From: Phycisphaerales bacterium | GTDB lineage: Bacteria; Planctomycetota; Phycisphaerae; UBA1845 | Reading direction: 5' to 3' | DNA length: 64,000 nucleotides | Assembly (NCBI GenBank): GCA_013140575.1 | Contig: JABFSN010000049.1 | Coordinates: forward strand, 1 to 64,000 | Position numbers and translations under genes: made by a program | Part shown: piece by piece, positions 6,455 to 60,804 of the stretch | Layout of the letters: each line of letters opens with the position of its first letter | Numbering within the stretch: position 1 is the stretch's first letter | The notes under the pieces: generated by a model | What the model was told of the DNA's origin: nothing | Databases searched by the model: none | What the model saw: the letters and a program-made list of their open reading frames with translations, nothing else

Positions 6455-6861
6455 CGAATCAGGAGTCCGTCCGCTGATCAACGGCGGTCGACTGCGACTG
6501 GGCTGACCCCGCACGGGCGGCGTCTTGGCGACCAGCGAGGTTTGCCCGGATCATCGCTCGTAACAGGTCAGCCAAGTGCAATGCCTCGAGAACGAAGACA
6601 CTCGTTAGACCCATGGGTAGGGCGGGTTTTACCCGCCGTTTGCCCTCCGGGCGAGAACGAAGAAGAATAGGGAATGGAGGGTGCGGTGACCAGGGACTGA
6701 AGTCCCTGGCTACAATCGTGCGCCCTGCGGGCGAAGAGATGGCGAGCGAAGTCCGCCCCACGGTGGGGTCCGATGGTCAATGTGGTAACCATCAAACTGC
6801 AGATAGCTGAACAGTCGCCAGTTCTCTTCAGCCGAACCGTGAACCCTGCCGGCGGCTTCTG
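6455..6861. repeat. Palindrome cluster in the tyrS/por convergent gap
   Basis: The gap between convergent tyrS and the oxidoreductase gene holds four consecutive palindromes: GGCGGGT/ACCCGCC (6621-6637), GCCC-TCC-GGGC (6642-6652), CCAGGGACT-GA-AGTCCCTGG (6690-6709) and CGCCC-TGC-GGGCG (6721-6733). The segment 6690-6736 is 43/47 identical to 53282-53328, so this is a real dispersed repeat. No gene is supported here; the position suits a bidirectional terminator or mRNA 3' end. Confidence 0.75.
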
Positions 6862-9150: not shown

Positions 9151-9215
9151 GATGACACCTCCGGCCCAATGCTCGGGCAGGCTTCTGTGTTCGAGTCGCG
9201 GCGCCGACTTCAGAA

Positions 9216-9235
9216 CCCCGGACGCAAGTCCGGGG
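9216..9235. repeat. Hairpin repeat, single unit, GCAA loop
   Basis: CCCCGGAC-GCAA-GTCCGGGG, a perfect 8-bp stem with a GNRA-type loop, preceded by TTCAGAA. The same unit occurs at 42285-42304 and, with a GAAA loop, at 60630-60649. Here it lies between the gamma-delta and alpha-beta oxidoreductase genes, inside what is probably one transcript. Confidence 0.8.
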
Positions 9236-9360
9236 CCGAGTGGGTATCCGCTTGCGTCTGCTTCACCGTCCGACGTCCGTTCCGCGCGGCCCGCCGCGCG
9301 CGTGGCCGGTTCTGATCCATACCCCCGACCCGACATTTCGAGCGTGTCGGATTTCCCGGG

Positions 9361-39743: not shown

Positions 39744-39800
39744 GCGTCATCGGCCTTCCAGCGTTCTGCGCCATCTGTGTCTGGCAGGCGCCGCTCGTTT

Positions 39801-39979
39801 CAGAGCACCGGGCGCAAGCCCGGCAATTCGAAGACGGAGGCCACATTGCGTCTTCGGCATCCGCGGGCTTGCGCCCGCGGCTCTGATTCGGCGTTCCCCA
39901 TGCCACCACACACGACGCCGTGACCCGCCCAAACTCCACCCGACTACTACGCCACCGACCGCGGGCTTTACGCCCGCGG
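39801..39979. repeat. Hairpin repeats between the receptor gene and cheR
   Basis: An inverted pair, CCGGGC-GCAA-GCCCGG (39808-39823) and CCGCGGGC-TTGC-GCCCGCGG (39861-39880), is flanked by CAGAGC (39801-39806) and GCTCTG. A third hairpin CCGCGGGC-TTTAC-GCCCGCGG follows at 39959-39979. These fill most of the 265-base gap after the receptor stop. They may end or protect the receptor mRNA. Confidence 0.8.
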
Positions 39980-42168: not shown

Positions 42169-42250
42169 GACTTGTCCTCGTGAAAACGGTCGTCCCGTGT
42201 GACGCCTGTCCGATGTTCAACCCCTTATCGCGACTCGCCGCCGCGACTAA

Positions 42251-42310
42251 TCAGAACCCGCCATGCGAGTGGCGGGCCGTCGGGCCCCGGACTTGCGTCC
42301 GGGGTTCTGA
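42251..42310. repeat. Compact REPIN-like hairpin pair, 60 bp
   Basis: TCAGAAC (42251) and GTTCTGA (to 42310) bound two hairpins: CCCGCCA/TGGCGGG (42257-42276) and CCCCGGAC-TTGC-GTCCGGGG (42285-42304). The same two stems occur in reverse order at 60622-60729. It lies between cheW and the receptor gene inside the chemosensory operon. Confidence 0.85.
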
Positions 42311-42378
42311 AGTTCCGCGTGTCGTTATTCACACCCATCCCGATCCTCGATCCGCGCTCAGCGGCGGCTCAATTACGT

Positions 42379-43229: not shown

Positions 43230-43354
43230 ATCGTACGACGTCCAACGTCAGAGCGATCGTACGACACCCAACGTCAGAGCCGCGGGCGCAAGCCCGCGGA
43301 GGGCGGGAGTTGAGGGCATCCCTCGCCACGCCATCACCGGGCTTGCGCCCCGTG
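43230..43354. repeat. Tandem 26-mer and hairpin pair upstream of the HDOD gene
   Basis: Two adjacent imperfect 26-base copies (43230-43255 and 43256-43281) both contain ATCGTACGAC and CCAACGTCAGAGC. They run into an inverted hairpin pair: CCGCGGGC-GCAA-GCCCGCGG (43280-43299) and CACCGGGC-TTGC-GCCCCGTG (43335-43354, one mismatch). The 559-base divergent gap 42922-43480 contains no supported gene. Confidence 0.75.
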
Positions 43355-43480
43355 CTCGGAAATGACGGGAACACGCTCATCGCGTGCTAATGGTCAATCG
43401 ACAATGCCGCGTGTTGACGGCAGTTACCGACGCACCGCACTTGATGGGTTGAAACCGGACCGCGTGACGGAGACTCTTCC

Positions 43481-47330: not shown

Positions 47331-47379
47331 GATGTTACGTCCGCTCCGGCTGGGTTGGTCCGCGCCCTTCGCGAAGAGT

Positions 47380-47729
47380 TCACCGCGGAGGCGCAGAGGA
47401 CGCGGAGAAAAAAAAGGGCAACAACCCGTCAAACGGCGTTCTTTCCACGGCGTCCATTTGACCGCAAGGCATCATGTTTCTGACGAAACCAATCGCGCAG
47501 TCAAGAACGGCGTGGGCGAACGCCCCAAGGATGGACGGGATTTACAAGATTGACAGGATGGCATGGGTCTGCCCGCCCCCCCGGCGAAACCAGCCTGCAT
47601 CTCAATCTTGTTGATCTTGTCAATCATGTCCACCTCAACTTGTCCATCTTGTTTTTGATCGGTTCCAAACCGGGTCCGCGTCACATTTCCAATCTTTTTT
47701 TCTCCGCGTCCTCTGCGCCTCTGCGGTGA
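47380..47729. repeat. Inverted-repeat element, 350 bp, ends CTCCGCGTCCTCTGCGCC type
   Basis: The left end 47380-47415 (TCACCGCGGAGGCGCAGAGG, then ACGCGGAG and an A run) is repeated in inverted form at 47695-47729 with a single mismatch over about 35 bases. The interior contains GGATTTACAAGATTGACAGG and related ATCTTGT/TTGTCAATC sequence, itself of repeat character. No gene. It fills the 431-base gap between hpr and ptsN and may separate their transcripts. Confidence 0.8.
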
Positions 47730-47761
47730 ATCCCCGATTCGATACCGCGTCCGGGCGGCGA

Positions 47762-51893: not shown

Positions 51894-53855
51894 ATGACAA
51901 ATCGAGCGACGACGGGCCCCGATTCTACTGACTCGAATGGCGGCGAACACGGCGCCCTCGACGATCGTTCTTCCGTCGGCGGCGGGATCGCGGCCGGCGA
52001 ACGCCCGCGGTTGTGGTCGCCGCGGCATTCGCTGTGGTTCGTGCTGGCGATCGTGCTGGCAGGCGTGCTGCGGCTCGTCGCGCTGGATCGCCATCCCGAG
52101 CCGGTCAACGAGGACGAACTTTCCAATATCTATGACGGGTGGAGCATCGCCGAAACGGGCGCGGACCGCGCCGGGCGGCGGTGGCCGATTCTGTGCCGGG
52201 GGTGGGGTCCGGGCGACAATCGGCCGGCGCTGATGGCCTGGCTCTGCGCGGGCGTGAGCGCGTTCACCGGGTTTTCGGTGGGTGGATGCCGTGCCGTGTC
52301 GGGCGTCGTCGGAACGATCACCGTCGCGCTGGTCGCATGGTGGGGCGTCGGCGTGGCCGGCCGGCGGATCGCGCTCCTGGGATCGCTGTTGCTGGCGGTC
52401 AGCCCGTGGCACCTGCTGTACTCGCGGCTCGCGCACGAGGGGACAGCGCTGCCGGGACTGTTCGCCGTCGCCATCGTTTTGTTGTTGCGATCAGCCGCTA
52501 TGGCGAACGATCGGGTGACGCATTCAACATGGCGATGGGCGGCGGCTGGACTGGTCATCGGCCTATCGACCAACGCCTACGGCGCAACGCGATTGACGGG
52601 ATTGCTGTTCGCGGTGTTGGCCGCGGCAGTGGTGGTGGCGTCGTGTTGGCGACGGGAATCGCGTCTGCGAAGTATGTTGGCGCCCGTCGGCGGCATTGCG
52701 TTCGGCGCGTTGATCGGCGCCGGGCCGCAAATCTGGGCGTCGTGGACCGACTACGACGCGTTCGTGGGTCGGGCGCGGATGACGCAGACGGCGTTTTTCG
52801 GCTGGTTGGACGCGGTGGAGACGATCGGGGGCAGCGTCGTGGCCAATCTGTCGCCGCGATACCTGTTCTACAGTTTCGGCGAGCCCGATCGGTTGGCCGC
52901 CGGCCGATGTTCAATCGTCGCGCTGCCCTTGTTTTACGCAGGGTTGATCTGGTTGTGCGTGCCGTGGAGTGGCATCCGTTGGTACGACCGCGTACTGCTG
53001 TTGGCCGGGCTGTTGATCTGCGCTTGTCCGCCGGCGTTCACGCGGGCGAATGTTCATTCGTTGCGCGCATCGGGCTGCGCTGTTCTGATTCCGATGATTT
53101 GCGTTGTCGGGCTGGTCCCATGGGGGCGATTGGGGGCGTGGATGATCGGGATGTCCGCAGGGAAAACTCCGGAATGGGCTGGGGGATTGCGCGGCGCGGG
53201 AAGGGACTCCCGCACCAGCGACCGGACCAGCGGCATCCACGGTCCGCCCGCCCTCCGGGCGGAAGGCAGGGAGGGCGGTATCCAGGGACTGAAGTCCCTG
53301 GCTAAAATCTCGCGCCCTCCGGGCGAAGCGTCGACGGCGTTGGGCGTATTTGCCCAAGTCGGCCGCTCGACGGCCGCGCATCGCGGTCGAGTGCAGAACA
53401 CCAACTCCGAAAAACGGGGTGATGCGATCGCCGACGCAGCGACGGCGGCGTGTGCGATGCTGATCCTAATCGCCGGGGCGTGGTACGTCGGGCGATTCAC
53501 CGGGGACGCCCACCTCCGGTCGGTGTTCCATCAACCGCACATGGTCGCGCTCGGCCGCTGGCTGACGCCACGGATGAACAACTACGATCGCGTCTATGTG
53601 GTCGCCCGCGGAAACCAGCCGGATATTTACCTGGCCGCGTTTACGGGCATGACGCCGCGCGAATTCCAGTCGGCGGAACGACCCGTCTGGGGCGAACGGA
53701 ACGAATACGCCCATCGGTTGAACCGGTTCCATATTGCGCGATTCCTGAAGGACGTGTACGATGACCGGCGCGCCGCGAACCCGAACGAACGATGGCTGGT
53801 GGTCGATGCCCATCGGACGATGATGCGGGAGCTGGGGCCGGCGCCGAACCGATAA
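51894..53855 (+). CDS. GT39-like polytopic glycosyltransferase with in-frame repeat insertion, 653 aa
   Basis: About ten hydrophobic segments. After the first (SLWFVLAIVLAGVLRLVALD) comes the acidic motif HPEPVNEDELSN, which matches the Asp/Glu loop of PMT/ArnT-type (GT39/GT83) enzymes that use polyprenyl-linked sugars. Residues about 420-512 are unlike the rest: a polar, Arg/Gly-rich segment between two membrane helices. It is encoded by 53155-53430, which contains the dispersed palindromes 53282-53301 and 53313-53325. The frame stays open, so the protein carries an insertion of roughly 85-90 residues. Donor and acceptor unknown. Confidence 0.75.
   Translation: MTNRATTGPDSTDSNGGEHGALDDRSSVGGGIAAGERPRLWSPRHSLWFVLAIVLAGVLRLVALDRHPEPVNEDELSNIYDGWSIAETGADRAGRRWPILCRGWGPGDNRPALMAWLCAGVSAFTGFSVGGCRAVSGVVGTITVALVAWWGVGVAGRRIALLGSLLLAVSPWHLLYSRLAHEGTALPGLFAVAIVLLLRSAAMANDRVTHSTWRWAAAGLVIGLSTNAYGATRLTGLLFAVLAAAVVVASCWRRESRLRSMLAPVGGIAFGALIGAGPQIWASWTDYDAFVGRARMTQTAFFGWLDAVETIGGSVVANLSPRYLFYSFGEPDRLAAGRCSIVALPLFYAGLIWLCVPWSGIRWYDRVLLLAGLLICACPPAFTRANVHSLRASGCAVLIPMICVVGLVPWGRLGAWMIGMSAGKTPEWAGGLRGAGRDSRTSDRTSGIHGPPALRAEGREGGIQGLKSLAKISRPPGEASTALGVFAQVGRSTAAHRGRVQNTNSEKRGDAIADAATAACAMLILIAGAWYVGRFTGDAHLRSVFHQPHMVALGRWLTPRMNNYDRVYVVARGNQPDIYLAAFTGMTPREFQSAERPVWGERNEYAHRLNRFHIARFLKDVYDDRRAANPNERWLVVDAHRTMMRELGPAPNR
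53243..53328. repeat. Dispersed palindrome module inside the GT39-like gene
   Basis: Contains CGCCCGCCCTCCGGGCGG (53243-53260), CCAGGGACT-GA-AGTCCCTGG (53282-53301) and CGCCC-TCC-GGGCG (53313-53325). The segment 53282-53328 is 43/47 identical to intergenic 6690-6736. Here it is translated (QGLKSLAKISRPPGE). Confidence 0.85.
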
Positions 53856-54378: not shown

Positions 54379-54467
54379 CGTGGCACGGGCATCTTGCCCG
54401 TGGTCTTGAATTGTGCGCGCCGGTGGTCGCTGGAGCGGCAAGACATGGGCTGGAAGCCCATGCCACG
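54379..54467. repeat. Paired-hairpin (REPIN-like) element, 89 bp
   Basis: Ends CGTGGCACGGGC (54379-54390) and GCCCATGCCACG (54456-54467) are inverted copies with one mismatch. Inside are CACGGGCA-TCT-TGCCCGTG (54384-54402) and CATGGGCT-GGA-AGCCCATG (54444-54462). Same terminal sequence as 12328-12445. It fills the gap between the convergent RidA and HslV-like genes. Confidence 0.85.
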
Positions 54468-54470
54468 GGA

Positions 54471-55040
54471 TTATTTGGGCACATCGAGGATTTCAATGGG
54501 GCCGCCGCACCCGTCGTCGTAACGGATCGCGGTCAGAACGGCCTGTTCGGCGAGCTCGCGGGCGCTGCTGACCCGCGATGACAGGGCGTGAAGCGCGCCG
54601 TAGGCGTATTGCGAGCCGCTGCCGATGGCGCAGAACTCCCGATGCCGCCAGACCGTCAGATTGCCGTGGACGTCGAATATGCCGTGGCGGTTGGCCAGCA
54701 GGAATGACGAATCGAGATCGCCGAACGGCGAATCGGCCCCCTCGCGTTGTTCGCGGACGAACGGATAGCGGGCCCGCAGCGTCTTCCAAAACCGCAGGAA
54801 GAATTCGAAGATCATCTCCTCGCTCTTCAACGCCGCGCCGCGCTGCTTGGCGAGGTAGTGCGCGAATATATTCTGATAGACCGACCACCCGGCCAAACCG
54901 ATCAGGTTGGAACCGAAACGGCGGATTTTCGACCGGCCGACGAGGTTCTCGGTGTAGTCTTTTTGCGGCCCGGTCAAATAAAGGGTGTCGGCGGCCATGC
55001 AGGTACGCCCGCGTTTGGTGACGGCGACGACGACGGACAT
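54471..55040 (-). CDS. HslV-like Ntn-hydrolase peptidase with Ser1, 189 aa
   Basis: After Met removal the first residue is Ser1 (MSVVVAVTKRGRTCMAAD), with Asp17 in MAAD17 and a Lys in GRSKIRRF matching HslV Asp17 and Lys33 (shifted by a short insertion). The region FCAIGSGSQYAYGALHAL corresponds to AIGSGGxxA of HslV. Bacillus CodW is a precedent for Ser1 in this family. AGGAG upstream sets ATG 55040. No hslU ATPase gene is adjacent, so partner and substrates are open. Confidence 0.82.
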   Translation of the reverse strand: MSVVVAVTKRGRTCMAADTLYLTGPQKDYTENLVGRSKIRRFGSNLIGLAGWSVYQNIFAHYLAKQRGAALKSEEMIFEFFLRFWKTLRARYPFVREQREGADSPFGDLDSSFLLANRHGIFDVHGNLTVWRHREFCAIGSGSQYAYGALHALSSRVSSARELAEQAVLTAIRYDDGCGGPIEILDVPK

Positions 55041-60490: not shown

Positions 60491-60621
60491 ACCCGAATGA
60501 TACGGCGCAGGGCGGACCAAGTCCACGTGATTCCGCCGTATCGGCCTGAGCGAGACGCGCGCCGCGGTTGATATCGCTGCGACTCGCGGCCGCCAGCCGA
60601 TTTCGTCGGCTCGCCGGCCGG

Positions 60622-60729
60622 TTTCAGAACCCCGGACGAAAGTCCGGGGCCGAACGGAGTGGACGCACGGCTCCCGCAGACGACGTGCAGCGGTCCCCTA
60701 CGGCCCGCCACTTGCGTGGCGGGTTCTGA
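60622..60729. repeat. REPIN-like hairpin pair, about 108 bp
   Basis: TTTCAGAACC at the left and GGTTCTGA at the right bound CCCCGGAC-GAAA-GTCCGGGG (60630-60649) and CCCGCCAC-TTGC-GTGGCGGG (60704-60723). It uses the same two stems as 42251-42310 in the opposite order. The 314-base gap 60491-60804 holds nothing else recognised. Confidence 0.85.
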
Positions 60730-60804
60730 TAGTTCGCTCCGAAGCGATAATCCGTGCGAGGAATGTTCAAGGCGACGTCGAATTGCGGTCTCAACACCGG
60801 CGGG

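Follow-up and report, generated by a model that had tools for sequence, protein, structure and literature searches.

How a stretch of dispersed palindromic repeats came to be read in frame within a membrane glycosyltransferase, and what brought it there, is the question raised by the gene at 51894–53855 of the window, namely the whole 64,000-nucleotide stretch of Phycisphaerales DNA analysed. We consider it likely (probability, roughly 78%) that a REP-type composite, consisting of a hairpin P and a three-hairpin module A-B-C, inserted into a loop of the GT39-like protein and was tolerated as the reading frame was kept.

Host protein and its long loop

The host gene (51894–53855, + strand) encodes a polytopic GT-C/GT39-like (PMT_2-like) membrane glycosyltransferase of 653 residues, as assigned from its open reading frame, PMT_2 match, and 15 aligned homologues; the PMT_2 Pfam scores (22.8 bits for the whole protein and 25.3 bits for its N-terminal part) are slightly under the cut-off of 26.1 bits. 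The last two membrane helices predicted from hydropathy (residues 390–408 and 511–529) enclose a loop of 102 residues. The corresponding loop of the closest homologue (in G014; 57% identity over residues 49–407) consists of 15 residues of ordinary sequence, in which no repeat of its own was visible, leaving a surplus of 87 residues in the GT39-like protein, in good agreement with the polar segment of roughly 85–90 residues between transmembrane helices described in an earlier note on this DNA. Alignment with homologues, as recommended there, showed that the extra segment is absent from all 15 of them, which belong to the same family or order and have short loops; a paralogue encoded elsewhere in this genome (contig C179) also lacks it and has a short loop. 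Distant homologues carrying the segment as an ancestral domain were sought and not found among the 15 homologues and the one paralogue, by which an ancestral GT39 domain is ruled out. A scan of genome contigs with the GT protein returned one homologue (Planctomycetota bacterium Dive96_bin4.107) and no same-species record.

At 57% protein identity, the closest comparison available, we infer an insertion event into the GT39-like gene. The inserted segment is placed by the homologue alignment and hydropathy at 53165–53376 (+ strand; borders, about ±30 nt), between the last two predicted helices. About 70 residues appear to have been inserted in this interval, whereas the remainder of the lengthened loop may be native, and the surplus amounts to about 70–87 residues; the 3′ portion of the extra segment (about 53347–53376) matches no other copy of the repeat. 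The loop with the insert is probably cytoplasmic, as suggested by the positive-inside rule and by how GT-C enzymes are generally built; the insert contains 12 Lys/Arg versus 6 Asp/Glu residues. As stated in the earlier note, the open reading frame continues uninterrupted through the repeat segment.

Repeat architecture of the insert

The insert combines two kinds of dispersed palindromic repeat (all on the + strand), hairpin P (GCGGGAAGGGACTCCCGC; 53196–53213) and the module A-B-C (53248–53325). Hairpin P represents a second dispersed repeat family, with 17 copies in the stretches of the own genome examined, and is usually paired (GCGGGAAGGGATTCCCGC/GTGCGAGAAGGGATTCTCGCAC). Within the module, hairpin A (CCGCCCTCCGGGCGG; 53248–53262), common to nearly all copies, is followed after about 19–23 nt by hairpin B (CCAGGGACTGAAGTCCCTGG, then the foot CTAA, TTAG on the opposite strand; 53282–53301), and, after CTAARATCGTG, by the palindromic hairpin C (CGCCCTCCGGGCG; 53313–53325), in a fixed order. 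Thus, palindromes are present as previously claimed, and their number is corrected from three to four perfect ones (P, A, B, and C). In the protein, the insert includes the peptide stretch SLAK-ISRPPGEASTALGVFAQVGR.

The 47-base block at 53282–53328 is 43/47 identical to a second B-C copy at 6690–6736 (+ strand), a match already pointed out in the earlier note and confirmed here with a chance expectation of about 2e-15 in the window. The assignment of that copy as intergenic is also reasonable, since it falls only in short open reading frames (105–110 residues) in apparently non-coding DNA. The predicted folding of the segment surpasses nearly all of 200 dinucleotide shuffles (z-score, −2.7 for RNA and −2.3 for DNA). 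An Rfam scan of the 64-kb window detected two tRNAs and nothing else.

Copies in the genome and in genes

The exact pattern of hairpin B plus CTA was counted 110 times in the 5.05-Mb genome, from which the reversed pattern, used as a control, was absent, and a BLAST search gave 47 matches from 40 scored candidates, reaching far outside the window. We read 112 copies one by one in the genome stretches surrounding them. Stem B takes the form CCAGGGACTGAAGTCCCTGG in 80 copies and the compensatory form CCAGGGGCTGAAGCCCCTGG, with an A-T pair changed to G-C, in 24 of the 112, the rest being rarer forms; hairpin B is therefore maintained by compensatory change. The foot, read on the other strand, is TTAG in 74 copies, GTAG in 24, CTAG in 5, ATAG in 2, and others in 7, amounting to an NTAG foot in 105 of the 112, as compared with the REP criterion GT[AG]G. 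At several loci, tandem units beginning with GGGCGAAGA trail 3′ of hairpin C, and a B-C unit with a 65-bp period is repeated four times in tandem at L055 (about 2427–2641), with a tandem also at L059; these tandem runs and trailing units suggest local expansion.

Gene-internal positions were called from open reading frames, codon statistics of the distal flanks, and homology. By these measures, 110 of the 112 copies (98%) are located outside genes or at gene edges, and only two lie inside conserved genes, the GT39-like gene and a GT9 heptosyltransferase gene (C159:33422–34645, L037; PF01075, 39.1 bits). The latter shows codon statistics of 0.11 and 0.15 around the repeat, and about 81 residues at the repeat are missing in 19 homologues. 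This insertion is independent of that in the GT39-like gene; both inserts are nevertheless P plus A-B-C, on the identical strand and in the identical frame (DSRTS...ALRAE...QGLKSLAK...RPPG). Gene-internal copies were also sought in G043, G016, G026, and G006, with no convincing case among the loci examined.

The earlier note had likened the element to rickettsial palindromic elements as a coding-compatible insertion. This part of the proposal was not supported. For the 187-nt segment, with a G+C content of 72%, a given frame is open in 40% of dinucleotide shuffles, and usually three of the six frames are open across repeat copies. Because frame openness is at the chance level, the repeat is not adapted to coding, and the idea of a coding-adapted element was dropped. 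On the sense strand, 49 of 54 copies keep the used frame open, against 9 and 0 of 54 for the two remaining frames, so that the frame common to the GT39-like and GT9 inserts is unremarkable, being nearly the sole open one. In short, the repeat does not always destroy genes, with no adaptation to coding.

Cognate Y1 transposase

Among the eight matches to Y1_Tnp (PF01797) in the genome, one gene of 150 residues (C123:14361–14810, L080), encoding an IS200-like Y1 transposase, has an inverted A-B-C copy on either side, with hairpin B about 50 bp from each end. For 112 copies in 5.05 Mb, the probability that any one gene has a copy less than 300 bp away at both of its ends by chance is about 4e-5. 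The exact B pattern occurs in only five of 60 related genomes, counting the own genome; one of them, G043, has 27 copies and a Y1 orthologue (67% identical) that is likewise flanked by A-B-C copies. In G026, G016, G006, G013, G007, and G056, the orthologues (72–79% identity) lie between modules of matching layout with altered stems or feet (e.g. CCAGTGGCTGAAGCCACTGG). Identical or derived modules thus surround the Y1 orthologue in seven other genomes; A-B-C is accordingly classed, by sequence comparison, among the REP-type repeats that have a cognate transposase, and the gene with its flanking repeats constitutes a REPtron arrangement. The family combines a short, many-copy palindrome having a consensus, mostly non-coding placement, and a cognate Y1 gene flanked by the repeat. 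The flanking position suggests that the enzyme would mobilise the repeats; for most REPs, too, the link between enzyme and repeat is deduced from position.

The C123 protein contains the motifs DHVH, WQ, and Y---Q--HH (YIARQKAHH) and is present in low copy number; these three motifs and the copy number match the signature of TnpA_Y1 subclass 1.2, of which it is a putative member. It scores 83.4 with the NCBIfam IS200 model (above the cut-off of 55) and 31.7 bits with REP_Tyr_transpos (below the cut-off of 80). With YIARQKAHH in place of YIxxNP and this low REP_Tyr_transpos score, a class 2 RAYT (TnpA_REP) is ruled out. Other Y1 genes (L081, L083, L084, L085, L086, and L087) are surrounded by their own, distinct palindrome families; the repeats of L081 and L083 face outward on both sides, as do those of L080, and the repeat of L085 is fully symmetrical.

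Origin and fate of the insertion

In the mechanism we propose, the single-copy IS200-like Y1 transposase (an HUH enzyme with one catalytic Tyr) would recognise single-stranded hairpins with an NTAG foot and move the repeats in trans. The composite would then have entered a probably cytoplasmic, variable loop and, with the frame intact, have been tolerated, while selection would purge most in-gene insertions, so that only a few, in frame and located in loops, persist. Most likely, the 70–87 added residues are translated and form an unstructured, neutral loop.

It is unlikely, by comparison, that the repeat arrived as part or remnant of a MITE, a longer element bounded by inverted repeats (CTAAATARGAAC...GGGAAACC), by the action of another transposase than Y1. 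Such elements are present in the genome: at least 27 of the 112 A-B-C copies lie within a MITE-like element of about 170 bp with terminal inverted repeats of about 28 bp (CTAAATARGAACACACAAAAGGGAAACC...GGTTTCCCTATTCYGTGGTTCTATTTAG; in G000, e.g. L066 at about 2489–2658, L057, and L049), many of these being 80–98% identical over about 170 bp, and the terminal repeat CTAAATARGAACACACAAAAGGGAAACC has 64 genome matches versus 0 for the control. For the MITE-like element, no partner transposase was identified, and inspection by eye revealed no clear target duplication. A second transposase has probably also spread the A-B-C module, part of whose copy number probably derives from the MITE having captured it. 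However, the copies in the GT39-like gene in the window and in the GT9 gene are without the terminal repeats and have unit P upstream, as in the non-MITE class.

Functional recruitment, in which the insert is kept by selection for a change in the loop (e.g. in regulation or protein contacts), has been speculated for rickettsial elements and is judged here to be quite improbable. Such a role would fit the fact that glycosyltransferase genes were hit in frame twice independently, with a matching composite and frame, and also the observed excess of basic residues, which suits the cytoplasmic side; two cases are, however, too few, the sharing of the frame is forced because the other frames are rarely or never open (9/54 and 0/54 as compared with 49/54), and the insert shows no conservation across species. 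It is very improbable that the gene is decaying into a pseudogene or was joined wrongly in the assembly, either of which would place the insert outside any working protein. The genome is fragmented (268 contigs), and repeats are the usual assembly breakpoints; against this reading, both halves of the protein (residues 49–407 and 517–650) are collinear with a single G014 gene, the frame is intact, the coding statistics are positive on either side of the insert (0.12 and 0.22), and the conserved C-terminal part is still present.

Relation to known repeat systems

The proposed REP-type insertion has a close counterpart in the GTAG REPs, which are present in Planctomycetes and Verrucomicrobia, are mostly extragenic, are tied to Y1 transposase genes, and include translated intragenic copies, typically of 20–30 residues and of 43–82 residues in clusters (PMC3733652, 2013). 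The present repeat shares these traits, as well as its dispersed palindromes and the TAG-type foot. It differs in that three hairpins form the module, to which a member of another repeat family is coupled, and in the foot, which is here mainly TTAG (74/112) with GTAG in 24. As to the rickettsial elements, in-frame cases were reported before 2013, and nearly half of the reported R. conorii RPEs lie in genes, according to a review (PMC10969869). The resemblance consists in a palindromic repeat translated in frame in unrelated genes having homologues without it; unlike RPEs, only 2 of the 112 copies are intragenic here, and nothing points to a frame being preserved for coding, so that the likeness is one of outcome and not of family. 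Membership among Rickettsia palindromic elements was rejected on the same two grounds, the intragenic share and open frames at the chance level. The element is better compared with REP-type repeats that have a Y1 transposase of their own, and the in-frame translated repeat is a new case of a known, rare phenomenon.

TnpA_Y1 proteins of subclass 1.2, characterised by DH[IV]H, WQ, Y---Q--HH, and low copy number, have been reported to be without REPs and to occur mostly in Cyanobacteria and Bacteroidetes (PMC6006769, 2018). The C123 transposase is similar to them in its DHVH, WQ, and Y---Q--HH motifs, short length, and low copy number, and differs in its planctomycetotal host and in the cognate palindromes flanking the gene, which contradict the absence of REPs. 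With REPtrons containing TnpA_REP (RAYT, 2.x), it shares a single-copy Y1 gene between inverted copies of its own repeat and the existence of several gene–repeat pairs per genome, whereas the transposase is not of class 2 by motif or model. In the open-access literature searched, the pairing of multi-hairpin repeats with an IS200-like subclass 1.2 transposase in Planctomycetota is apparently undescribed. On balance, we lean slightly towards a broader reading, in which planctomycetotal IS200-like Y1 transposases of subclass 1.2 would mobilise REPs and each be paired with a separate multi-hairpin family; they would make up a REP system beyond the known RAYT classes, one that occasionally adds peptide loops to genes.

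With the GT39-like and GT9 genes, there are now two further well-supported examples in which a mobile palindrome has become part of a protein sequence, in a phylum with little prior description of this, and, as the total copy number is known, the in-gene share can be given (2/112). A subclass reported to be without REPs appears as the likely driver, which is amenable to biochemical tests. Annotators should also be aware that repeat-derived peptides of this kind are not domains.

Other repeats

At L274 (G000:C223:3400–6200), tandem units of about 156 bp with P hairpins extend over about 960–1640; the array carries a putatively coding open frame of 283 residues in which KSGARLLAKRSRGRSSREGIPAVVGARRDSRTSG is repeated. 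The window also contains palindromes from other dispersed families (TCAGAACCCCGGACGCAAGTCCGGGGCC and CCGCGGGCTTGCGCCCGCGGCTCTGA among them), which form direct and inverted pairs at five sites (9207–9237, 42243–42313, 60617–60737, 39795–39886, and 43267–43365). Another repeat type, with the palindromes GTGGCACGGGCATCTTGCCCGTG and CATGGGCTGGAAGCCCATGCCACG, is located at 54380–54475, immediately 3′ of the next gene. Finally, a 36-nt inverted repeat (TTCACCGCGGAGGCGCAGAGGACGCGGAGAAAAAAA) with 97% complementarity lies at 47379–47414 and 47695–47730, its two arms being 280 nt apart.
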